From Pectobacterium parmentieri (GTDB lineage: Bacteria; Pseudomonadota; Gammaproteobacteria; Enterobacterales; Enterobacteriaceae): a DNA stretch of 64,000 nt. Position 1 is the stretch's first letter. Each line of letters begins with the position of its first letter. The notes beneath the pieces are model-generated. The model did no database searches. It was not told the origin of the DNA and was given only the letters and a program-made list of their open reading frames with translations. The stretch spans positions 62,001-126,000 of the forward strand of contig NZ_CP015749.1 in the NCBI RefSeq assembly GCF_001742145.1. The letters are read 5' to 3'. The translations under genes and the position numbers were made by a program. This document shows positions 25,316 through 44,296 of the stretch, piece by piece.

Positions 25316-26296
25316 ATGGATAACGCTTTTAGCCCTTCGGACTTAAAAACAATTCTGCATTCCAAACGCGCCAATGTTTATTATCTTCAGCATTGTCGCA
25401 TTCTCGTCAACGGTGGCCGTGTCGAATATGTCACGGAAGAGGGAAGTCAGTCGCTGTACTGGAATATTCCCATCGCCAATACCAGCGTTGTGATGTTGGG
25501 AACCGGCACCTCCGTCACGCAGGCCGCCATGCGAGAGTTTGCCAGAGCCGGTGTGATGGTCGGTTTCTGTGGCGGTGGCGGTACTCCGCTGTTTGCGGCT
25601 AACGAGGCGGAAATCGCGGTATCCTGGCTATCGCCACAGAGCGAATATCGACCAACCGAGTATTTGCAGGACTGGGTGAGCTTTTGGTTCGATGATGAGA
25701 AAAGGCTGGCCGCCGCCGTCGCCTTTCAGCAGGTGCGAATAACACAAATTCGTCAGCACTGGCTAAGCTCTCGTCTGTCCCGCGAATCCCGCTTTACCTT
25801 TAAGGCCGATCACCTTCAGGCGCTTTTGGATCGTTATGAAAAAGGGCTAACCAACTGCCGTACCAGTAATGATGTGCTGGTACAGGAAGCGATGATGACG
25901 AAAGCCTTGTACAAATTGGCCGCTAATGCTGTCAGCTATGGTGACTTTACCCGCGCCAAACGCGGCGGTGGCACCGATTTGGCTAACCGCTTTCTCGATC
26001 ACGGCAACTATCTGGCTTATGGGTTGGCCGCCGTCTCGACGTGGGTCTTGGGTCTGCCGCACGGGCTAGCTGTGTTGCACGGTAAGACTCGCCGTGGCGG
26101 GTTGGTGTTCGACGTCGCCGATTTAATTAAAGATGCGCTTGTGCTACCGCAGGCTTTTATTGCTGCGATGGAGGGCGAAGATGAACAAGAATTTCGTCAG
26201 CGCTGCCTGACCGCGTTTCAACAATCCGAAGCGCTGGATGTGATGATCGGCAGTTTGCAGGATGTCGCCAGTAAGCTGAGTCAGGTAGCGCGATGA
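25316..26296 (+). CDS. cas1: Type I-F CRISPR integrase Cas1
   Basis: Cas1 of 326 residues is the metal-dependent integrase that inserts new spacers. The C-terminal helical domain carries the conserved metal ligands: Glu in QEAMMTKALYKLAANAV, His in GLPHGLAVLHGK and Asp in GLVFDVADLIKDAL. In type I-F it works with the Cas2 domain fused to Cas3, encoded by the next gene with a four-base ATGA overlap. It is the first gene of the cas operon and faces away from array 1. Confidence 0.97.
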   Translation: MDNAFSPSDLKTILHSKRANVYYLQHCRILVNGGRVEYVTEEGSQSLYWNIPIANTSVVMLGTGTSVTQAAMREFARAGVMVGFCGGGGTPLFAANEAEIAVSWLSPQSEYRPTEYLQDWVSFWFDDEKRLAAAVAFQQVRITQIRQHWLSSRLSRESRFTFKADHLQALLDRYEKGLTNCRTSNDVLVQEAMMTKALYKLAANAVSYGDFTRAKRGGGTDLANRFLDHGNYLAYGLAAVSTWVLGLPHGLAVLHGKTRRGGLVFDVADLIKDALVLPQAFIAAMEGEDEQEFRQRCLTAFQQSEALDVMIGSLQDVASKLSQVAR

Positions 26297-29200
26297 ATAT
26301 TCTGCTGATTTCAGAATGCAATAAGCGTGCGCTGGTCGAAACCCGTCGAATACTGGATCAGTTTGCCGAGCGCAAGGGCGAACGCAGTTGGCAAACCGCT
26401 ATCACGCTGGAAGGGCTGAACACACTACGCAAGCTGTTGCGCAAAACGGCACGTCGCAATACGGCTGTCGCCTGTCACTGGATTCGTAGTACAAACCATA
26501 CCGAGCTGCTGTGGGTCGTCGGCAATCTGCGGCGTTTTAATGCTCAGGGGAGCGTACCGACCAATACCACCAGCCGGGATGTCCTGCGCACGAAAGATGA
26601 AAACCCGTGGCACAGCGCTGAGGTATTTAGCCTGCTGGCCGCTATTGCTGGGTTATTTCACGATGTTGGCAAAGCCAATGCGTTGTTTCAGGCGGGACTG
26701 AGCGGCACAGGCCCGCACAGCCAACCCTATCGACATGAATGGGTATCGCTGCGACTATTTCAGGCTTTTGTCGGTGAGCAGGACGATAAAGCCTGGCTAA
26801 CCATGCTCAGCACCATTACCCCAGAAGCGGAGGTCGCGCTGTTGGCAACGCTGCAACACGATAAGCCGACGTTCAGCGATAGCCCATTTCGTACCTTGCC
26901 GCCACTGGCACAAACCGTTGCCTGGCTGATTGTGTCTCACCATCGGCTGCCAGTGTTTAATAAAGCTGTTGAGCTTGCACCAAATAGTAGTGAACCGCAG
27001 TTAAGTTTCGCTGAGACATGGTTAACCGACCATACCTCCGCTCAGTGGAATGCCATCAATCACTACAAAACTCACTGGACATCGTCCGAGCGAGAGCAAA
27101 ACTGGCAGTTCCCTAACGGGACACCACTGCGCAGCGCGGTCTGGAGAGAGAAGGCTCGAAAATTTGCAGGCCGTGCGCTGAAGCTGCCTGCATTCATGTA
27201 TTTCAGCCAGTTAGACCAGCGGTTGACCGTGCATCTGGCACGCCTTGCGCTCATGCTGGCAGATCACCACTACTCGGCAGGCGCGGCGACGCTTGGCTGG
27301 CAGGACATCACTTATCCGGTGTGGGCTAACACCGATCGCAAGACAAGGGAATACAAACAGAGGCTGGACGAACACTGCGTCGGTGTTGGACAAAATGCCC
27401 TACTACTGGGGAGAAGTCTGCCGCACCTGCGTGACACGCTCCCCGCCATCACCCGCCACAAAGGGTTCCGTCAACGCAGCACGCATCCACGCTTTCGCTG
27501 GCAAGATCGTGCGTTTGACCTTGCTGGCTCCATTCGTGAAACCACGAAACAGCACGGCTTCTTCGGCATCAACATGGCATCGACAGGCAGAGGGAAAACC
27601 TTTGCTAACGCACGAATTATGTATGGTCTGTCGGATGAAGCCATCGGCTGCCGCTTCTCCGTCGCGCTGGGGTTACGTACGCTAACGTTACAAACGGGCG
27701 ATGCGCTACGGCAACGTTTGAAGTTGGACGAAGACGACTTAGCGGTGCTGATTGGTTCACAGGCGGTGCAAGATCTCCATGAAATGCGGAAGGAGAATCA
27801 ACAACGCCAGCAGAATACGCCACAGACCGGCAGTGAATCCGCCGATCCGCTGTTCTCTGAACATCAATATGTTCGCTACGATGGCTCTCTGGATGATGGT
27901 CGGCTAAAAGCCTGGCTGGAACGCAGTCCAACTCTGCATCAATTACTGAGTGCGCCCGTGCTGATCACCACCATCGATCACCTAATGCCAGCAACGGAAG
28001 GGCTACGCGGCGGTCACCAGATTGCCCCAATGCTACGATTATTAACCTCCGACCTGGTACTCGATGAACCGGATGATTTTGGTCTGGAGGATCTTCCTGC
28101 CCTTTGTCGACTGGTTAACTGGGCGGGAATGTTGGGCTCACGCGTGCTGTTGTCGTCAGCCACACTGCCGCCTGCGTTAATTCGTGCGCTGTTCGATGCT
28201 TATCTTGATGGCCGCGCTGCCTGGCAACAGGCTTACGGTACACCAAATGCGCCACTGAATGTGTGCTGCGGCTGGTTTGATGAATTTGACTGTCAGCATG
28301 CGCAATATGGCGACGTGAAAGACTTCATGATCAAGCACGATGCGTTCGTTCATCAGCGGCTGAAAAATCTGACGAAAGATGAACTCCCGCTACGCTTCGC
28401 CACTATCGTACCGGTCAGCAGCCCCAGCAAAAATGCAGACGATGTTCATCTGGCCGTCGCACAGGCGATCCATCCACGGATATTGGATTTACATTCGCAG
28501 CATCACCAACAGCATGAAAGTGGGAAGACCGTCTCGCTGGGGCTGGTCAGAATGGCAAACATCGATCCGCTGGTTGCCGCCACTCGACAGTTACTTTCCA
28601 TCCCTTCACCGCCGGATACCTGTATTCATTACTGCGTTTATCACAGCCAACATCCGTTGGCGATGCGCTCCTATATTGAACAGCGGCTTGATGCCGCGCT
28701 GATGCGCAACGATGCCGATGCTCTGTGGCAGGTAGAGGAGATTCGTCAGGCGATAGAAAAAGCGCCACAACAGCATCACGTCTTTGTTGTTCTGGCAACC
28801 TCTGTCGCTGAAGTGGGTCGCGATCATGATTACGACTGGGCGATTGTTGAACCTAGCTCGATGCGTTCGCTGATCCAACTTGCCGGGCGCATATTGCGTC
28901 ACCGGCAGGATGAACGATATGTACCTAAAACGCCGAATATCTATCTGCTCAGTCACAATATTCGAGCGCTTAGGGGAGAGGACATTGCGTACTGTAAACC
29001 TGGCTTTGAGTCGCAGGATGACAGCCTGGATACACACGATCTCCATCAGCTATTACAGGAAAAAGAGTACCGCCACCTTAGCGCCGCACCGCGTATCGTG
29101 CAGCCAGCATCATTTACCAAACCGCTTTCACTGGTAGCGCTAGAGCATGCCGTGTTGGGAAAAACGCTGCTTGGCCTCAAAAATAAAAAACTCGATGACC

Positions 29201-29589
29201 TGAAACGCCCTCCCGCAGCCTTTTGGTGGCGCGCACACCCGCATTGGAATGGTGAACTGCAACGGCGAACACCTTTTCGTCAATCGGCGAAAGATGAAGC
29301 GTACACCCTGTGGATCGCCGATGACGATGAAGAACCCGTTTTCATGGTGCAGGACGATGGCCCCAGCGGCTGGAAGCCAAACGATATTGCTCGTCCCGTT
29401 ACGCTGAACATGGCAGAAGGCGTCAGTGCCTGGATTGAGCCGGATTACCACGCCTTGTACCAACGGCTGGCAGAAGAAAAGCAGTGGGAACTGAGCTGGG
29501 TGAGCGCCCGCTTCGGCGAAATTCGCCTGCGTGAAGAAAAAGACTGGTACTGGCACCCGCTGTTGGGAGTGTTTGGCGCACTCAGTTGA
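26293..29589 (+). CDS. cas3: Cas2-Cas3 fusion helicase-nuclease
   Basis: A 1098-residue fusion found only in type I-F. Residues about 1-95 are a Cas2-like ferredoxin domain (MNILLISECN, DQFAERKGERSWQTAITLEGLNTL). An HD nuclease domain follows, with LFHDVGKANALF at residues 121-132 and YRHEWVS. The superfamily-2 helicase has Walker A STGRGKTFA, a DEPD Walker B (LVLDEPDD), motif III SSATLPP and motif VI QLAGRILRHRQ. It joins Cas1 for adaptation and is recruited to R-loops for degradation. The gene is followed at once by the degenerate mini-CRISPR described below. Confidence 0.97.
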   Translation: MNILLISECNKRALVETRRILDQFAERKGERSWQTAITLEGLNTLRKLLRKTARRNTAVACHWIRSTNHTELLWVVGNLRRFNAQGSVPTNTTSRDVLRTKDENPWHSAEVFSLLAAIAGLFHDVGKANALFQAGLSGTGPHSQPYRHEWVSLRLFQAFVGEQDDKAWLTMLSTITPEAEVALLATLQHDKPTFSDSPFRTLPPLAQTVAWLIVSHHRLPVFNKAVELAPNSSEPQLSFAETWLTDHTSAQWNAINHYKTHWTSSEREQNWQFPNGTPLRSAVWREKARKFAGRALKLPAFMYFSQLDQRLTVHLARLALMLADHHYSAGAATLGWQDITYPVWANTDRKTREYKQRLDEHCVGVGQNALLLGRSLPHLRDTLPAITRHKGFRQRSTHPRFRWQDRAFDLAGSIRETTKQHGFFGINMASTGRGKTFANARIMYGLSDEAIGCRFSVALGLRTLTLQTGDALRQRLKLDEDDLAVLIGSQAVQDLHEMRKENQQRQQNTPQTGSESADPLFSEHQYVRYDGSLDDGRLKAWLERSPTLHQLLSAPVLITTIDHLMPATEGLRGGHQIAPMLRLLTSDLVLDEPDDFGLEDLPALCRLVNWAGMLGSRVLLSSATLPPALIRALFDAYLDGRAAWQQAYGTPNAPLNVCCGWFDEFDCQHAQYGDVKDFMIKHDAFVHQRLKNLTKDELPLRFATIVPVSSPSKNADDVHLAVAQAIHPRILDLHSQHHQQHESGKTVSLGLVRMANIDPLVAATRQLLSIPSPPDTCIHYCVYHSQHPLAMRSYIEQRLDAALMRNDADALWQVEEIRQAIEKAPQQHHVFVVLATSVAEVGRDHDYDWAIVEPSSMRSLIQLAGRILRHRQDERYVPKTPNIYLLSHNIRALRGEDIAYCKPGFESQDDSLDTHDLHQLLQEKEYRHLSAAPRIVQPASFTKPLSLVALEHAVLGKTLLGLKNKKLDDLKRPPAAFWWRAHPHWNGELQRRTPFRQSAKDEAYTLWIADDDEEPVFMVQDDGPSGWKPNDIARPVTLNMAEGVSAWIEPDYHALYQRLAEEKQWELSWVSARFGEIRLREEKDWYWHPLLGVFGALS

Positions 29590-29675
29590 GTGCGCCACTG
29601 CCTGTACGGCAGTAATGTAAGATTAAAGCCACGAATGACTTTTCTTATTTCTAAGCTATCTGTATCGATAGGGCT
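29590..29675 (-). ncRNA. Degenerate two-repeat mini-CRISPR, putative CreR/CreA-like guide RNA
   Basis: Two repeat-like units, 29590-29617 and 29648-29675, flank a 30-nt pseudo-spacer (29618-29647). The left unit keeps the whole hairpin core ACTGCC-TGTAC-GGCAGT but has lost both ends. The right unit keeps the first ten bases (TTTCTAAGCT), and its stem is changed on both sides yet still pairs (CTATC with GATAG). In crRNA orientation (minus strand) the right unit supplies the 5' handle CTTAGAAA and the left the 3' hairpin, as in a normal Cas6f product. The pseudo-spacer matches 24 of 30 positions of the site at 29723-29752. The unit begins at the last base of the cas2-3 stop codon. Confidence 0.8.
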
Positions 29676-29678
29676 TGC

Positions 29679-29708
29679 ATGATACACATTCATACGCTTA
29701 TGCTTCAA
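29679..29708 (-). promoter_or_regulatory. Minus-strand promoter for the mini-CRISPR
   Basis: On the minus strand TTGAAG (29708-29703), an 18-bp spacer and TATCAT (29684-29679) match four and five of six bases of the sigma-70 hexamers. Transcription would start at about 29672, at the edge of the first degenerate repeat, so the guide RNA can be made independently of the cas operon. This is a sequence prediction. Confidence 0.6.
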
Positions 29709-29722
29709 TCACTGAAGAAATA

Positions 29723-29754
29723 TAAAAATAAAGAGACAAATGTCTTTTCTTAGG
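29723..29754 (+). promoter_or_regulatory. Pseudo-protospacer targeted by the mini-CRISPR guide
   Basis: Bases 29723-29752 match the pseudo-spacer without gaps at 24 of 30 positions. Counted from the PAM side, positions 1-9 are all identical and mismatches fall at 10, 15, 18, 19, 25 and 27. Bases 29753-29754 (GG on the plus strand) give the type I-F 5'-CC PAM on the correct strand and side. The site lies in the only non-coding promoter-sized region upstream of the 53-codon ORF and csy1, so Cascade binding without full pairing would be expected to block transcription rather than cut. Confidence 0.75.
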
Positions 29755-29814
29755 TTGAATGAAATCTTCAGCTATCATGCTCGTATAGTGCAAGCTTTAA
29801 GCAGGTCGCAGCAT

Positions 29815-29976
29815 ATGAAACGATTAAACGTTATTGGATTAGCAGTGTTATTGGCCGCTATTTTGGTTGTCATCCTTTGTATGAAGCCCATAACTATGTA
29901 TATCAATAACCAAGCGGACAGCTCAGCAAAGGGACAACAATTCTCAATTTTTTCTATAACAATCAATCGAAACTAG
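29815..29976 (+). CDS. Small hydrophobic protein between cas2-3 and csy1 (53 aa)
   Basis: A 53-codon frame starting MKRLNVIGLAVLLAAIL, with AGG nine bases upstream of the ATG and its stop 40 bp before csy1. Residues about 6-24 form one strongly hydrophobic segment (VIGLAVLLAAILVVILCMK), followed by a polar tail, so it is a likely single-pass membrane peptide. Nothing at this place is part of the standard I-F operon. Its position directly downstream of the Cascade target suggests either a leader ORF of the csy transcript or a toxin kept silent by the guide, as in CreTA modules. An upstream in-frame ATG at 29740 is less likely because it lies inside the target site. Confidence 0.55.
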   Translation: MKRLNVIGLAVLLAAILVVILCMKPITMYINNQADSSAKGQQFSIFSITINRN

Positions 29977-29992
29977 AAGAAAGTTCATGTAA

Positions 29993-33871
<3,879 letters not shown>

Positions 33872-34275: not shown

Positions 34276-35136
34276 GTGAAATACGATCCGGTGTTAAAAA
34301 CGCTTGTTGATGATGATTATCGGCTAGAGGATCATCTTGATTTTAAAAAGCAGCATGCAGATATCAACGATCAAAAATTACGTGCTCAACTAAATGAAAT
34401 AAATGATGATAATATTCATGCCATATTGACTGCGCAGGAAGCAACGTATTTTTTAAAAACATTGTGTACGCCAAATCCTAATCAATCGTGGAAAACGGCC
34501 ATATTTGGCTGTACTGACCCTGTATCATCGTTTGCCGGTAATATTGCAGAGGCTGTGTCTGTGAGCCGAATTTTGATGGAGATAAAAGGATTCGGCGTAA
34601 AGGCAACTGAATATATTGGAAAAGATGGCAATAAATATATAAAACTATCTGGGTATCCTGGGGTAAGGAAATATTTAAATGCCACTAGATATTTAAATAT
34701 TAGTCATAAAATAGTAGATATAGGGATAGGGACGAAAGGTATCGAAAGCGGTATTGCGGCTGGTGCAAGATTATGTATTATTTTTTCAGCGGCTTACCGA
34801 ACCATTGAGTTAATGTTTAAAGATGAATACGCATTAACCGATTTCTTTGTTAATTTAACGATGGATGCCGCAAAATTAGCGATATCGATTGGAGTTGCAT
34901 GGGGGGCGAAAACGGCAGCTACCTCGGTAATGGTAGCCACAGGAGGCAGTGTTATTATTATTGCTTGTGGTGTATTCGCATTAGGGGTCATTGTCAGCTT
35001 TTCATTACTCTGGTTAGATGATAGGTATAAAATAAGTGAGACGATAATAAATAACTTAAAATCACATAGATCACAATATACCCCATACCATCCAGACCAG
35101 TTCTTTAATACCTGGGGGAGGTACAGTCGTGGTTAA
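34276..35136 (+). CDS. Putative membrane-active type VI effector
   Basis: A 286-residue protein with a GTG start after AGGGAG. The N-terminal 90 residues are charged and soluble. The middle holds the motif SGYPGVRKYLNATRYLNISHKIVDIGIG (about 123-150), which I recall from enterobacterial polymorphic-toxin-like proteins, though I cannot name the family. From about 155 to 250 come three or four hydrophobic helices rich in Gly and Ala, the layout of pore-forming domains. It is followed by tandem small membrane proteins, the first overlapping it by eight bases, and an orphan hcp lies at the far end. The best reading is an Hcp-delivered inner-membrane toxin with cognate immunity; activity is inferred. 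Confidence 0.55.
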   Translation: MKYDPVLKTLVDDDYRLEDHLDFKKQHADINDQKLRAQLNEINDDNIHAILTAQEATYFLKTLCTPNPNQSWKTAIFGCTDPVSSFAGNIAEAVSVSRILMEIKGFGVKATEYIGKDGNKYIKLSGYPGVRKYLNATRYLNISHKIVDIGIGTKGIESGIAAGARLCIIFSAAYRTIELMFKDEYALTDFFVNLTMDAAKLAISIGVAWGAKTAATSVMVATGGSVIIIACGVFALGVIVSFSLLWLDDRYKISETIINNLKSHRSQYTPYHPDQFFNTWGRYSRG

Positions 35137-35533
35137 GGTTAACAGGCCATTAGTGGGCGCATTTGCAATTTTTATTTTTCTATTGACATGTTTTACTGGT
35201 TGGTTTTCTTTTAATTCATATTTGGATTTTTTACAGTTAACTGATGTAATTGTTTTTTCATGGAAAGTTGGGTTGATGGTTTTTTGTTCACCATTGCTAT
35301 TCTATTTTTCATATTTATTCCTTTATTCTGTAGTGAATAATGAAGTGGCTAGAATTAATAATAAACTTGGAGGGGGGTTGGTTATAATAATGATTATTGG
35401 GGGCGTAATTAGCTTGTTTTCATCTCTGTATATATCTTATAGCCTAAATGAGTTGGGCTATGAAGTCTGCCCTAAGACATCCTGGATGTCTCCAAATAAA
35501 TATGTAAAAAACATTGATCTTTGTAAAGAATAA
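35129..35533 (+). CDS. Putative immunity protein, tandem copy 1 (DUF1240-like)
   Basis: A 134-residue membrane protein read from a GTG start after GGGGAGG, overlapping the effector stop by eight bases, which couples their translation. Three hydrophobic segments (about 8-28, 42-70, 85-105) are followed by the tail CPKTSWMSPNKYVKNIDLCKE, whose two cysteines recur in every copy and could form a disulfide outside the membrane. I believe the family is DUF1240, recalled and not searched. Being the effector-coupled copy, it is the likeliest cognate immunity protein. Confidence 0.65.
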   Translation: MVKVNRPLVGAFAIFIFLLTCFTGWFSFNSYLDFLQLTDVIVFSWKVGLMVFCSPLLFYFSYLFLYSVVNNEVARINNKLGGGLVIIMIIGGVISLFSSLYISYSLNELGYEVCPKTSWMSPNKYVKNIDLCKE

Positions 35534-35578
35534 AATAGTACGAAAGTATGATATTCCATGCCTGGGGGAGATACAGCC

Positions 35579-35986
35579 GTGGTTAAAGTAAATAGGCCAT
35601 TAATTGGTTCGTTTGCATTATTTCTTTTTCTTGCTTCTTGTTGGGGATGTTGGTTCTCTTTAAGCGGATACTTAGCTTTCTTTGAATCAAATGATGTAAT
35701 TATCTTCTCATGGAAAGTTGGTGTCCTGATATTCGCTGCACCACTATTGTTCTATTTTTCATATCTGGCTTTTTATTCTGTAATAAAAAACGAACCTGCA
35801 AAGATGAATAATAAATTAGCAAATATATTAGCAATGATAGCTATCTTTGGCGCGGTGGTTAGTTTGTTTTTATCAATATATGTATCATATGATCTTAACA
35901 TTCAAAGTTATAAAATGTGTCCAAAAATATCCTGGATGGATCCCAATAAGTATGTGAAAGATATTGTTTTCTGTGATAAATGGTAA
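35579..35986 (+). CDS. Putative immunity protein, tandem copy 2
   Basis: A 135-residue paralogue of copy 1. I placed the start at the GTG in the conserved context GTGGTTAAAGTAAATAGGCC, preceded by GGGGAG; an ATG at 35558 would lie upstream of that ribosome site. Three membrane segments and the tail CPKISWMDPNKYVKDIVFCDKW are conserved. It follows copy 1 by 45 bp. Confidence 0.6.
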   Translation: MVKVNRPLIGSFALFLFLASCWGCWFSLSGYLAFFESNDVIIFSWKVGVLIFAAPLLFYFSYLAFYSVIKNEPAKMNNKLANILAMIAIFGAVVSLFLSIYVSYDLNIQSYKMCPKISWMDPNKYVKDIVFCDKW

Positions 35987-36032
35987 AGATTATCTAATAG
36001 GTTGTTATTTTTATGCCTGTGGAGGATTGTTC

Positions 36033-36440
36033 GTGTTTAAAATAAATCGGCCGCTATTTTTCTCATTCTCAGTGCTGGTTTTTATAATTACATGCTGGGG
36101 AATCTGGTTTTCTTTTAATGGTTATTGGGGTTTGTTTAGACTAAGCGATATAATTATCTTTTCATGGAAGGTCGGGATACTTATTTTTGGTTCGCCAATG
36201 TTGTTTTATTTTTCTTATTTAGGGTTTTACATGGCAATAAAAAACAAACCGATAGGAATGTATGGAACATTAACAAATGTATGTGGTTATTTGTTTTTTA
36301 TTGGTGTGGTGATTAGTTTTATTGCATCTATGTATATTTCTTTTAATTTTAGAAGTTATGGGTATGAATTATGTCCTAAGAACTCTTGGATGGATCCCAA
36401 TAAGTATGTGAAAAGCATTGTTCTCTGTGATGAATGGTAA
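36033..36440 (+). CDS. Putative immunity protein, tandem copy 3
   Basis: A 135-residue paralogue starting GTGTTTAAAATAAATCGG after GGAGG. The tail FRSYGYELCPKNSWMDPNKY is shared with copy 5, while the N-terminal part differs from copy 5. It follows copy 2 by 46 bp; the longer frame beginning at 35964 overlaps copy 2 and is not supported. Confidence 0.6.
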   Translation: MFKINRPLFFSFSVLVFIITCWGIWFSFNGYWGLFRLSDIIIFSWKVGILIFGSPMLFYFSYLGFYMAIKNKPIGMYGTLTNVCGYLFFIGVVISFIASMYISFNFRSYGYELCPKNSWMDPNKYVKSIVLCDEW

Positions 36441-36491
36441 ATAACAAAAATATCTAGTGGTTTTTATTTTCCTACCAAGGGAGAGTCAGTC

Positions 36492-36896
36492 GTGGTTAAA
36501 ATAAATAGGCCATTATTTTTCTCATTTTCATTGTTTGCTTTTATCCTTTCATGTTGGGGTGGATGGTTTTCTTTAAGCGGATATATTGATTTTTTTAATC
36601 TAAGCGATGTTGTTTTATTTTCATGGAAACTGGGGGGGATGATTTTTTTAGTGCCTATAGTATTGCAATTCTCTCATTTTTCCCTTTTCTCTGCGATAAA
36701 AAACAAGCCTATTAAAATGAATAATAAAATTTCAAATGTATTGGTTATATTTGCTATTCTGGGGGCTGTGATTAGTTTTTTTTCATCTCTTTATATCTCT
36801 TATAGCCTAAATGAGCTAGGGTATGAAGTCTGTCCTAAGACGTCCTGGATGTCTCCGAATAAATATGTAAAAAATATTGTTCTTTGTAAAGAATAA
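36492..36896 (+). CDS. Putative immunity protein, tandem copy 4
   Basis: A 134-residue paralogue with a GTG start after AAGGGAGA. Its C-terminal part (SYSLNELGYEVCPKTSWMSP) is nearly the same as in copy 1, whereas its N-terminal half (SGYIDFFNLS) resembles the broken copy 6. This mosaic pattern suggests gene conversion within the tandem array. Confidence 0.6.
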   Translation: MVKINRPLFFSFSLFAFILSCWGGWFSLSGYIDFFNLSDVVLFSWKLGGMIFLVPIVLQFSHFSLFSAIKNKPIKMNNKISNVLVIFAILGAVISFFSSLYISYSLNELGYEVCPKTSWMSPNKYVKNIVLCKE

Positions 36897-36943
36897 ATAA
36901 TGATAAGAGAATATGCTTTTTCATGCTTGGGGGAGGTACAGCC

Positions 36944-37351
36944 GTGGTTAAGGTTAACAGGCCATTAGTGGGCGCATTTGCAATTTTTATTTTTCTATTG
37001 ACATGTTTTACTGGTTGGTTTTCTTTTAATTCATATTTGGATTTTTTACAGTTAAATGACACGATAGTCTTTTCATGGAAAGTTGGGTTAATGGTATTTG
37101 GTTCTCCTTTGCTATTCTATTTTTCATATTTATTTTTTTATTCTGCAATAAATAATGAAGTGGCGAAAATAAATAATAAACTTGGAGGGGGGTTATTTAT
37201 AATAATGATAGTTGGTGCTATCATTAGTTTGTTCTCATCTTTCTACATATCTTATAATTTTAGAAGTTATGGGTATGAATTATGTCCTAAGAACTCTTGG
37301 ATGGCTCCCAATAAATATGTGAAAAAAATTACTCTCTGTGATGAATGGTAA
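36944..37351 (+). CDS. Putative immunity protein, tandem copy 5
   Basis: A 135-residue paralogue with a GTG start after GGGGGAGG. The first 100 or so bases are identical to copy 1 (through PLVGAFAIFIFLLTCFTGWF), while the C-terminus matches copy 3 (FRSYGYELCPKNSWM). It is therefore a recombinant of two neighbours or the result of a block duplication. Confidence 0.6.
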   Translation: MVKVNRPLVGAFAIFIFLLTCFTGWFSFNSYLDFLQLNDTIVFSWKVGLMVFGSPLLFYFSYLFFYSAINNEVAKINNKLGGGLFIIMIVGAIISLFSSFYISYNFRSYGYELCPKNSWMAPNKYVKKITLCDEW

Positions 37352-37402
37352 ATAACAAAAATATCTAGTAGTTTTTATTTTCCTACCAAGGAAGAATCAA
37401 TC

Positions 37403-37800
37403 GTGGTTAAGATAAATAGACCGTTTTTTTCATATATTCAGTTTTTATTATTTCATGCTGGGGAGGATGGTTCTCTTTACGCGGCTATATTGATTTCTTT
37501 AATCTGAGTCATGTTGTTTCATTTTCATGGAAACTCGGGGTGATAATTTTTCTCGTTCCAATCGTGTTCCAGTTTTCTTGTTTTGGCTTTTTTTCTGCGA
37601 TGAAAAATAGACCGATTAAAATGAATGATAAAATCTCAAATGCATTGGTCATTTTTGCTATTTTTGGTGCCGTGGTGAGTTTGATTTTATCTATGTATAT
37701 CTCTTATAGTCTTCATGTTCAGGGTTATAAAGTTTGTCCCAAGAACTCATGGATAGCTCCCAGTAAATATGTAAGAGATATTATTCTTTGTAAAGAATAG
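37403..37800 (+). pseudogene. Frameshifted immunity paralogue, copy 6
   Basis: The conserved GTG start and the residues KINRP are present, but the frame is lost in the run of seven T at about 37424-37430. One added T restores the expected SCWGGWFSLRGYIDFFNLS and joins it to the intact downstream part (IIFLVPIVFQFSCF through CPKNSWIAPSKYVRDIILCKE). As read, translation would stop near 37505. It may be a dead copy, a phase-variable homopolymer or a sequencing error. Confidence 0.7.
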
Positions 37801-37837
37801 ATTGATAATTATTTTATGATTAAATATGGAGTTATTC

Positions 37838-38242
37838 GTGGTTAAAGTAAATAGACCATTTATTGGAGCGTTTTCTGTTTTTATTTTATGCCTTTCCTGC
37901 TGGGGAACTTGGTTTTCTTTAAGTGAGTATTTATCATTTTTTAAATCAAATGATGTGATTGTTTTTTCATGGAGAGTTGGGGTTGCTATCTTTGGAGTAC
38001 CGTTGTCATTCTATTTTTCATATGCTTGTTTTTTTTCTGCGATAAAAAATGAGCATGTGAAGATCAATAATAAATTAGGCGAGTGGTTGGTTAAGTTTCT
38101 TATCTTCGGTGCTGTGGTTAGTTTGTTTTCATCATCGTATATATCATACAGCCTTAGTCATCAGGGGTATAAAACCTGCCCTAAAATATCCTGGATGGAT
38201 CCCAATAAATATGTGAAAGATATCACTCTTTGCGATAAATGA
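37838..38242 (+). CDS. Putative immunity protein, tandem copy 7
   Basis: A 134-residue paralogue and the last of the tandem row. GGAG lies six bases before the GTG at 37838; an ATG at 37826 is also in frame. It ends CPKISWMDPNKYVKDITLCDK, like copy 2. Its stop is 52 bp from the end of the convergent hcp gene. Confidence 0.6.
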   Translation: MVKVNRPFIGAFSVFILCLSCWGTWFSLSEYLSFFKSNDVIVFSWRVGVAIFGVPLSFYFSYACFFSAIKNEHVKINNKLGEWLVKFLIFGAVVSLFSSSYISYSLSHQGYKTCPKISWMDPNKYVKDITLCDK

Positions 38243-38294: not shown

Positions 38295-38774
38295 CTAGAG
38301 GCTCATTTCCTCCCAGATACTGTAACCCGATGTTCCTGCAATCTTATGGTTCCATGCGATGGTTTTGTATTTTAGCTGGACTTTTTCATACGGCATGATT
38401 TCATTGTTATCGATGACGTGCGGATAGACACAGGTGACATCGACAATGTTCGCATCCGTTAATGTAACTTCATAATAAAGTTCTAATTGCCCTGCGGAAT
38501 TGACGCGGTAAAAATAGAATGTGACATCCACCTTTTCATTATAAGAGATTGCCATCCCTAATAATGGGGACGATTTGTCGATTGGCTTAACAAAATTAAT
38601 TGGGTGATGGGCAACATTTTGATCGCGGCTGATACTGTGGTTTAAGCCTAATACTTGTATTTGATCTTCATGACCAGTTTGGTAGCGATTGCCAATTGAG
38701 TCAAGCGTTGAGCAACCGGATGATATTAAACCCTGTTTTTGACCATTAATGCTGGCATAAATCAAATTAGCCAT
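38295..38774 (-). CDS. hcp: Hcp family type VI secretion protein
   Basis: Hcp of 159 residues forms the hexameric rings of the type VI inner tube and also carries small effectors. The family stretches are clear: MANLIYASINGQKQGLISSGCSTLDSIGNRYQTGHEDQI, QNVAHHPINFVKPIDKSSPLLGMAI and the C-terminal IAGTSGYSIWEEMSL. No other type VI structural gene is visible in the window, so this is an orphan copy serving a system elsewhere. It is convergent with the immunity row, which links that island to type VI secretion. Confidence 0.93.
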   Translation of the reverse strand: MANLIYASINGQKQGLISSGCSTLDSIGNRYQTGHEDQIQVLGLNHSISRDQNVAHHPINFVKPIDKSSPLLGMAISYNEKVDVTFYFYRVNSAGQLELYYEVTLTDANIVDVTCVYPHVIDNNEIMPYEKVQLKYKTIAWNHKIAGTSGYSIWEEMSL

Positions 38775-42234: not shown

Positions 42235-44296
42235 TCTTTAAGCTGCCTGCACGGCAGTGAATGCTGGCTCGATGCGCAGCATGACAGCGCGCCCTTTCTA
42301 AGCTGCCTATACGGCAGTGAACTTCTTTCAATACCATGCCGCCCCACGCATTGCTTTCTAAGCTGCCTATACGGCAGTGAACCCTTTCCGCCATAAATTT
42401 TTATCTGCTTACCGTTTCTAAGCTGCCTATACGGCAGTGAACTCAGCTAGACGTAATTTATGGTATGTAGGCAATTTCTAAGCTGCCTATACGGCAGTGA
42501 ACAAGGTTGGGCGCTGGTGCCAATTGAGCCGACTTTTCTAAGCTGCCTATACGGCAGTGAACGACAGGGCGGTGGATCACATCGTTCCGCTCTCTTTCTA
42601 AGCTGCCTATACGGCAGTGAACTGGTATTCGTCGCCGGTCACTCGGTCATCCGTTTTCTAAGCTGCCTATACGGCAGTGAACTTTTTGTCAGGACTCAAA
42701 CCGGCGTAATTTATTTTCTAAGCTGCCTATACGGCAGTGAACGATTCGCGGGTTAGCGTGGGTGGTTCTGCGCTTTTCTAAGCTGCCTATACGGCAGTGA
42801 ACATTTAAGCTTCAGAATGTGATTGGCCTCAAAATTTCTAAGCTGCCTATACGGCAGTGAACTTGGTTTCATGACGCTGTGGCTTTCGCACCTTTTTCTA
42901 AGCTGCCTATACGGCAGTGAACATTCAGGTCATCTGGTATCGGAGAACGCAGCCTTTCTAAGCTGCCTATACGGCAGTGAACCATCGCTGGCGTATTCAG
43001 TGTGGTCGAAAGAGTTTCTAAGCTGCCTATACGGCAGTGAACCATTTCAACCGGAGAGGTCAGTACTAGACTGTTTTCTAAGCTGCCTATACGGCAGTGA
43101 ACATAGGATATCAATGTATGCCTCACGCGTAAGATTTCTAAGCTGCCTATACGGCAGTGAACATACAAAGGATACAATGCCCGTCGAGATAAACTTTCTA
43201 AGCTGCCTATACGGCAGTGAACTGGTGCGTGTCGCGGCGGCGGTAGAGGGTGATTTTCTAAGCTGCCTATACGGCAGTGAACTTGATAAACACGCACACG
43301 GCGCAGTGATGAGCTTTCTAAGCTGCCTATACGGCAGTGAACCTTTAGTGCAGGCAGCGGGGCGCTATTTCTAAGCTGCCTATACGGCAGTGAACGACGA
43401 GCAACGGGCGCACTGCCCATTGCCCAATTTCTAAGCTGCCTATACGGCAGTGAACTCAGATGCCGTTGATCTGGCACATGCCGTTATTTTCTAAGCTGCC
43501 TATACGGCAGTGAACTTAATTAACTGCATAACAGCCTGGGAAACGGTTTTCTAAGCTGCCTATACGGCAGTGAACGCAGCAACTTCACGCTGACGGGTTT
43601 GCATGTCTTTCTAAGCTGCCTATACGGCAGTGAACCGACTCACTTAACGAATTTGCATACGACCCGTTTTCTAAGCTGCCTATACGGCAGTGAACACTTC
43701 TAACACGCCTTTATGGTCATCATATACTTTCTAAGCTGCCTATACGGCAGTGAACGAATAACGTCGAGCGTGACGTCATCCAGCACTTTTCTAAGCTGCC
43801 TATACGGCAGTGAACAAATCCAAGAGAGTACGAGCGCCGTTAGCATATTTCTAAGCTGCCTATACGGCAGTGAACACTCTGATAGTTCTATATTGGGTCA
43901 CGTGGAATTTCTAAGCTGCCTATACGGCAGTGAACACTATTACCGTGACGGTGAATTTACTGTTAACTTTCTAAGCTGCCTATACGGCAGTGAACATCCT
44001 ATTATTAATTAGCGTTGCAGTCGCTAATTTCTAAGCTGCCTATACGGCAGTGAACTTAGTGCACGTTACGCCGTTTAGCGTTTCAGATTTCTAAGCTGCC
44101 TATACGGCAGTGAACATTGGAATAAGGCAATTAATAGCCGTGCTTAGTTTCTAAGCTGCCTATACGGCAGTGAACGCTAAACTGCTGGGCGTGCTCGATG
44201 AAGTTAATTTCTAAGCTGCCTATACGGCAGTGAACATTCTGTTTATGTTATAAAAGATTCTTCCTGCGTTTCTAAGCTGCCTATACGGCAGTGAAC
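42235..44296 (-). CRISPR. Type I-F CRISPR array 2 (35 repeats, 34 spacers)
   Basis: Thirty-five 28-bp repeats run at 60-bp steps with 32-nt spacers. In crRNA orientation they start GTTCACTGCCGTATAGGCAG, differing from array 1 by one base in the loop. The left-most repeat (42235-42262) is degenerate, so the leader is on the right and transcription runs leftward. Two steps are irregular: the spacer at 43343-43367 is only 25 nt, and the leader-proximal one at 44236-44268 is 33 nt. It uses the Cas proteins encoded about 10 kb to the left. Confidence 0.98.

Follow-up and report, generated by a model that had tools for sequence, protein, structure and literature searches.

The type I-F CreTA of Acinetobacter WCHA45 was established experimentally as a guide-repressed module in the gap between cas3 and csy1, and the available text of that report mentions 19 more modules found by hand (PMC10097628). 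CreR is described, in the accessible parts of three sources, as a crRNA-like RNA with a partial match to a cas promoter, whose action is relieved by crRNA competition or anti-CRISPRs (PMC13131331, PMC12948488, PMC12737573). The excerpts differ on its distribution: PMC13131331 names types I-B, I-E and V-A, whereas PMC12737573 refers to 'Type I and Type V-A' at large, and given this broad wording type I-F cases of CreR may already be known. In CrePA, a CRISPR-repressed protein toxin is combined with a crRNA-like antitoxin (PMC12737573, accessible part). Among the literature matches listed, in which the primary CreR and CrePA papers appear as references only, we recognised no module from Pectobacterium or E. 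coli, no type I-F CreR and no membrane-protein version in the text available.

The analysed stretch of Pectobacterium parmentieri DNA (the window, 64,000 nt) contains a complete type I-F locus, with cas1f, cas3f (cas2-3) and csy1-4, all six cas genes scoring above NCBIfam cut-offs. CRISPR arrays with 26 and 34 repeat matches (at most three mismatches) flank the locus on both sides; in the second array, at 43315-43395, one spacer falls 7 nt short of those next to it, with repeats spaced at 53 instead of 60. The end of cas2-3 is separated from csy1 by a 427-bp gap that holds, in this order, a hairpin arm at the cas2-3 stop, a pseudo-repeat (PsiR1), a 30-nt spacer, a second pseudo-repeat (PsiR2), the target with its PAM, the gene of a small protein (P0001) and 40 bp before csy1 (Table 1). 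Direct reading of the sequence confirmed the degenerate mini-CRISPR that a preliminary description had placed between cas2-3 and csy1. No copies of the gap were found in the plasmid collection searched. Downstream of csy4, seven tandem copies of a unit of about 450 bp occupy 35129-38242 and encode DUF1240 membrane proteins in the two copies scanned; with an unassigned 286-aa protein before them (34276-35136) and an Hcp-like type VI protein after them on the opposite strand (38295-38774), they look like an immunity-gene array.

Table 1. Features of the type I-F locus and its cas2-3/csy1 gap, in window positions
Feature	Position	Strand	Basis or remark
cas2-3 (Cas3f), intact	26293..29589	+	TIGR02562, 1347 bits
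Perfect 10-bp inverted repeat across the cas2-3 stop codon, just before PsiR1	29575..29596	.	GGCGCACTCA-GT-TGAGTGCGCC; without T-run
PsiR1, pseudo-repeat retaining crRNA 3' hairpin (29598-29612)	29590..29617	-	direct reading; folding
PsiS, 30-nt guide	29618..29647	-	24/30 match to target
PsiR2, pseudo-repeat whose 5' handle (29648-29655) is intact and whose stem (29656-29671) is compensated	29648..29675	-	direct reading; folding
Candidate guide-RNA promoter, TTGAAG(18)TATCAT	29679..29708 (-10 29679-29684, -35 29703-29708)	-	matrix score
Target (protospacer)	29723..29752	-	match to PsiS
PAM, 5'-CC on minus strand (GG on plus)	29753..29754	-	direct reading
Candidate repressed promoter, weak	29750..29789	+	TTAGGT(17)TATCAT by eye, or ATGAAA(19)TATAGT by score
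P0001, 53-aa single-TM protein, candidate CRISPR-repressed effector/toxin	29815..29976	+	orthologue comparison
csy1, 40 bp after P0001	30017..31351	+	TIGR02564
csy2	31279..32280	+	TIGR02565
csy3	32294..33307	+	TIGR02566
csy4/cas6f, candidate processor of guide	33317..33871	+	TIGR02563

Each pseudo-repeat retains what a minus-strand guide would need from it, the handle upstream and the hairpin downstream. The PsiR1 hairpin (CTGCC-TGTAC-GGCAG) lies inside a 16-nt stretch identical to the array repeat; the remaining part, 29590-29597, bears no resemblance to a handle and belongs to the other hairpin, which spans the cas2-3 stop. A search against Rfam yielded a sub-threshold match of PsiR1 to CRISPR-DR4 (18.2 bits versus 35, E 0.58), and nothing beyond it was found in Rfam for the locus. 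In PsiR2, the handle (TTTCTAAG) is intact, two inner pairs of the stem (CTATC/GATAG) are altered on both sides, and the loop has 6 nt versus 5 in the array repeat; folding of the 25-nt piece gave a z-score of -3.8, with 2 of 200 shuffles folding as well. Thus, of the two decayed repeats described previously, the PsiR1 hairpin and the PsiR2 handle are kept, 29590-29597 is unlike a handle, and the second stem, said to have changed on both arms yet still to pair, does so around a loop of six nucleotides. Degenerate repeats outside an array, with a processable hairpin and handle, as in crRNA-like regulators, are therefore present. In the survey of loci described below, the PsiR2 stem is free of mispairs in 30 of the 34 distinct loci, a fraction biased upward by the scan's tolerance of at most one stem mispair, and two-sided changes, which are free of this bias, occur at four of the five pairs. 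For P. atrosepticum, the part of PMC3630108 available reports that a two-sided change at the same stem pair (C18A/G8U) preserved crRNA function.

The 24/30 gapless match between PsiS and its target, with nine straight matches from the PAM end and a correct 5'-CC PAM, was reproduced as first described. None of 40,000 first-order Markov samples of 29676-30016 attained 24/30 beside a GG or 15/17, the agreement of the window pair over 17 nt, and two carried the nine-nt seed. Likewise, 0 of 2000 shuffled guides reached 15/17, and the guides of 23 other loci, placed on the window gap, gave 13/17 at best and 8.3 on average; a chance match was rejected on these grounds. Across the 5.03-Mb genome, the 17-nt pattern with PAM occurs at eight places with at most three mismatches, versus 16 for a reversed control. 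Two sites remain at up to two mismatches, one being the spacer, which lacks a PAM, and the other the local target; no other chromosomal target with a PAM was found at this threshold. The window guide can self-fold. Its mismatches fall at positions 10, 15, 18, 19, 25 and 27, and it is exceptional in being matched at positions 6 and 12. Ungapped similarity between guide and target extends to 42 nt at 76%; at nt 18-42, 17 of 25 positions are shared, versus a maximum of 11 in the 33 other distinct pairs, so the window pair may be young or born of a duplication.

To place the module within the genus, 25 Pectobacterium genomes were compared. Of these, 14 carry csy1, and five of the 14 carry the module: the window's own genome, P. 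betavasculorum NCPPB 2795, P. versatile KC01 and two further genomes, G006 and G005. In the other nine, cas2-3 and csy1 are 23 bp apart or overlap. P. betavasculorum and P. versatile have the same small gene as the window and a common guide that differs from the window's, with the target differing in step (15/17, CC PAM). G006 and G005 have a common third type of guide, another target (11 and 12 of 17, CC PAM) and a different small hydrophobic frame in the gap; the first hairpin of G005 contains one mispair. Both arms of the inverted repeat across the cas2-3 stop are identical in P. betavasculorum, P. versatile and G005, and the repeat is also present in G006. By eye, hairpins after the cas3 stop precede the pseudo-repeats in loci L038, L039, L041, L046, L050 and L055 of the wider survey as well, and in L038 and L039 they carry a T-run that would terminate the guide RNA. 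The comparison of related gaps suggested in the preliminary description was thus borne out as to co-variation, with guide and target letters departing from the window's in step, and partly as to conservation: the repeat pair, seed and CC PAM are kept in the four relatives, and the module is missing from nine of the 14 genomes with csy1.

G006 is probably P. atrosepticum. Its csy1 start is the published primer sequence and its Csy1 has 443 aa, both fitting the P. atrosepticum data in the accessible part of PMC3513311; its gap measures 365 bp, the length given for P. atrosepticum in PMC4499141, whose authors, in the text available, left open the presence of a promoter there. P. atrosepticum therefore probably carries the module. 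The recurrence of the arrangement in relatives bears on whether the gap holds a decayed piece of a CRISPR array, or a spacer acquired from self DNA, that no longer has a function. Such an origin would agree with the degeneracy of both repeats and with a possibly young or duplicated window pair; it is nevertheless improbable, considering that precisely the handle, hairpins, seed and PAM are kept and that the stem is compensated.

To extend the analysis beyond the genus, Csy1 was searched in 394 genomes of the order (60 matches) and 369 genomes of the class (32 matches). Named loci were fetched for the best 80 of 544, and 77 of these were scanned along with 100 loci from earlier searches. The resulting 177 loci include duplicates; to pass the scan, a locus needed a match in addition to a handle and a pair of hairpins. 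Candidates combining handle, hairpins and a GG site were detected in 99 loci, and the module anatomy, with at least 11 of 15 non-sixth positions matched beside GG, in 44, representing 34 distinct guides. When each of 15 wrong dinucleotides replaced the PAM, no locus passed in six of the runs, a single locus in another six, and 3, 4 and 6 loci in the last three. The scan's hairpin rule misses L041, L047, L104 and L139, though all four match on direct inspection. In a first survey of 24 loci, chosen by eye from 100 with other loci with one-mismatch handles omitted, GG follows the best site found without regard to the PAM in 23. The remaining locus, L093, is handle-like and was rejected, having neither hairpins nor a target.

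The pairs revealed a positional pattern. Over the 34 distinct pairs, positions 1-5 are never mismatched, position 6 is mismatched in 25 and position 12 in 24; the counts for positions 7-11 are 1, 4, 2, 1 and 1, those for 13-17 are 4, 7, 10, 10 and 9, and matching fades after position 17, with 19-29 mismatches at each of positions 18-32. Positions 6 and 12 do not count towards the scan score, which rises with matches at the others, so this contrast is partly one of selection, for which the wrong-dinucleotide runs serve as a control. In the first survey, scored over all 17 positions, 17 and 18 of 23 pairs were mismatched at positions 6 and 12, and 0-5 elsewhere up to position 17. In Cascade structures, the sixth crRNA positions flip out and need not pair. 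With positions 1-5 never mismatched, 6 and 12 random-looking and a fade after 17, the pattern looks like a Cascade-like pairing rule. The guides vary among loci yet follow their own targets, which by this comparison is coevolution. The two similar stretches could otherwise be operator copies for an ordinary regulator rather than guide and target, as the similarity running to 42 nt, past the spacer, and the partly palindromic target (AGACA-AA-TGTCT on the plus strand, by eye, within 29730-29750) might suggest. Operator copies give no reason for freedom at positions 6 and 12 or for dependence on a PAM, and in relatives both sites have unrelated letters while seed, PAM and hairpins are kept; we consider them very improbable.

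Candidate promoters were then placed relative to guide and target. The window guide promoter has a spacing of 18 and a predicted +1 about 24 nt before the handle, and in 34 of the 44 loci the best guide promoter puts 21-27 nt between the start and the handle that follows it, as estimated with approximate matrices and without a shuffle control. By the same matrices, likewise without a shuffle control, the best sigma-70-like promoter near the target has a -35 starting 2-6 nt past the end of the target in 22 of the 34 distinct loci, among them the window; in the remaining 12 it lies at 10 nt (one locus) or upstream (11 loci). A PAM-flanked partial match near cas genes, another mark of crRNA-like regulators, was thus found, the promoter of the window being a weak prediction. 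This candidate precedes P0001 and csy1-4, all on one strand, and in that respect the spacer would match the csy promoter region, as had been proposed; the immediate neighbour of the target is, however, the P0001 gene, and csy1 starts 264 nt beyond the target. With the P0001 gene and csy1 on one strand, 40 bp apart and behind the target, both would be controlled.

Considering these features, we think it likely that the gap encodes a type I-F RNA of the CreA/CreR type, through which the Csy complex represses the small-protein-csy operon until the complex is inhibited. A minus-strand RNA would begin near 29672 and be cut by Cas6f (Csy4) at both pseudo-repeats, leaving a crRNA-like guide that has CUUAGAAA as its 5' handle and a hairpin on the 3' side. 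Carried by the Csy1-4 complex, the guide would bind the CC-flanked target through partial pairing, presumably without cleavage, and the bound complex would block the promoter beginning beside the PAM. The operon silenced in this way would be short, P0001 and csy1-csy4, with P0001 and csy1 probably co-transcribed. Should the complex run short, be titrated away by array crRNAs or be blocked by an anti-CRISPR, P0001 and Csy would both rise; the rise of csy1-4 would resupply Csy proteins, as with CreR, and the released small membrane protein would most likely stall or damage the cell, as with CreTA and CrePA. Cascade repression of its own csy operon and/or a small gene had been put forward from the window alone, and the retention of repeat pair, seed and PAM in relatives supports it at the level of sequence. 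Four features of the window speak against this explanation: mismatches outside positions 6 and 12, a weak forward promoter, a longer PsiR2 loop and a self-folding guide. The absence of the module from nine of the 14 csy1-bearing Pectobacterium genomes counts against it as well. In P. atrosepticum, according to the accessible part of PMC4499141, a single mRNA starting at the cas1 promoter carries the cas-csy genes, so expression of csy1-4 may be independent of a gap promoter and the control may be partial.

The distance between target and csy1 bears on which gene is the selected target. Pure autoregulation, a type I-F CreR in which the csy1-csy4 promoter is the selected target and the small frame a passenger or leader, would suit the eight of 34 distinct loci in which 5-73 nt separate the target from the csy1 start downstream, hardly enough for a gene; csy1 is the obvious target there. 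Seven of these distances are 62-73 nt, and the 5-nt one belongs to L111, whose csy1 start is uncertain. CreR itself has been reported in types I-B, I-E and V-A (PMC13131331, in the part accessible), and 10 of the 26 long inserts contain no strongly hydrophobic frame. In the other 26 distinct loci, however, the target is 121-338 nt from csy1, and 16 of these inserts hold a frame with a 15-residue hydropathy of at least 2, equalled by at most 1 of 200 shuffled inserts in nine cases and by 5-22 of 200 in seven. P0001, moreover, shows protein-level selection. As an account of the module in general, autoregulation on its own is somewhat unlikely. Loci L039, L041, L043, L046, L049, L055, L099 and L100 have a guide and a target 62-74 nt before csy1 and are candidates for a type I-F CreR.

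P0001 was compared with its two orthologues, giving dS of 0.63 and 0.56 and dN of 0.17 and 0.16. Judged by these rates, it is under protein-level selection, which speaks for a protein product, an RNA part being also possible. A search of the 25 Pectobacterium genomes identified three proteins at E <1e-10, all in the cas2-3/csy1 gap, and further matches in these genomes up to E 1 look like noise. With a profile of the three sequences, gap proteins of an Enterobacterales MAG, Yersinia pekkanenii and Serratia grimesii scored clearly above all 3600 layout-keeping shuffles; the protein of Cedecea locus L207 did only slightly better than the best shuffle (E 0.046 versus 0.067), and the other 14 real gap proteins do not stand out from the 3600. 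Some alignment rows are unrelated by score, and the case for a family is therefore built on the three Pectobacterium proteins and those of Yersinia, Serratia and one MAG; for Cedecea, Leclercia, Photorhabdus, Brenneria and E. coli, the link to the single-TM family is one of place and layout. No KilA-N-type toxin protein, as in CrePA, was identified: P0001 has no Pfam match over the cut-off and, at the thresholds applied, could not be assigned to any family of NCBIfam or PADLOC.

Of 5426 complete E. coli genomes, 237 have the cas3/csy1 gap. Guide position 5 separates two lineages, and the target shows the matching change. One lineage has an intact ATG frame and was sampled with five loci; four of these were covered over all csy genes and have csy1-4 intact, as has the covered part of the fifth, and cas3 is frameshifted in one of the four. 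In the other lineage, the small frame lacks the ATG and is frameshifted, and csy or cas3 pseudogenes occur in five of nine loci (UTI89, MS8345, SF-468, A20 and 82.0311) and in none of the remaining four. All 37 E. coli rows at 100.0% identity span the whole 4,057-bp stretch from the gap to csy4; in SZQ1, one of two other records at 99% identity or more, the match starts inside csy3, so that the gap, csy1 and csy2 are absent together. RefSeq skips one locus tag between cas3f and csy1 in E. coli loci L216, L219, L221 and L223, a pattern that an earlier annotation of the small frame would leave.

This pattern of gene loss fits addiction, resting on two lineages. An addiction or abortive-infection module of the CreTA/CrePA type, with a membrane protein as toxin, would make P0001 the selected target and the control of csy1-4 incidental. 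Its place and layout would be those of the Acinetobacter CreTA (PMC10097628, as far as its text is available), single-TM-like proteins occur in the same gap in several genera, many with a basic N-terminus and a KP motif, and the E. coli lineage with the intact frame keeps csy1-4. Against this, three of the five broken E. coli loci have the csy2 internal stop in common (UTI89, MS8345 and SF-468), the changed frame still encodes the same last residues from other start codons, and P0001, the candidate toxin, has no family match in the libraries scanned. A P. atrosepticum cas6f deletion mutant is also viable, as stated in the available part of PMC3630108, and a lethal effector is thus not likely in this species under laboratory growth. 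On balance, addiction is a plausible reading, falling a little short of an even chance.

Elaborating on the preferred reading, repression of the small-protein-csy operon by the Csy complex, we tentatively suggest, at slightly under even confidence, that a family of small single-TM proteins is silenced by the Csy complex through ectopic guides that change fast along with their targets and obey a 17-nt, skip-every-sixth rule. The system would then be a protein alarm, in which loss or inhibition of the complex frees a membrane effector together with fresh Csy, and the window's guide and target would have been replaced jointly, perhaps through duplication of some 42 bp, with the effector gene retained. 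P. atrosepticum being a studied type I-F system, RNA-guided self-control and a possible anti-CRISPR alarm are testable there and in E. coli. The rule at positions 6 and 12 offers natural evidence on the shortest and least perfect matches that selection for Cascade binding will still maintain. Moreover, when csy genes are deleted or anti-CRISPRs are tested in module-bearing strains, expression of an unannotated membrane protein may be induced.

Hok, TisB, Ldr and similar type I toxins are short hydrophobic proteins with a single TM segment, repressed at the mRNA level by antisense RNA and not by Cascade. P0001 resembles them in being short and single-TM, without a match in the family libraries scanned. 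CrePA, with its CRISPR-repressed protein toxin and crRNA-like antitoxin, is comparable to the predicted guide and candidate effector of the window; CreP, according to the available text, typically has a KilA-N domain and blocks division, whereas P0001 is a short single-TM protein (PMC12737573). With CreR, as far as it is described in the sources available, the window has in common a predicted crRNA-like guide and a partial match near a candidate cas promoter, and it differs in having a small gene between the promoter and csy1. The likeness to the Acinetobacter I-F CreTA extends, by the layout described in the accessible part of PMC10097628, to a cas3-csy1 gap of about 400 bp, two pseudo-repeats, a CC-flanked partial target and a guide divergent from a short reading frame. 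By the same account, its toxin is a small RNA with a 33-bp frame, its guide has 20 nt and is unpaired at positions 6, 11 and 18, and its target lies downstream of the creT promoter; the window, in contrast, encodes a 53-aa membrane protein that shows protein-level selection, its guide measures 30 nt, and its target adjoins or overlaps the -35 of the candidate promoter. Together, these comparisons make the Acinetobacter I-F CreTA the nearest known case; what is new here is the membrane-protein family and the breadth of occurrence.
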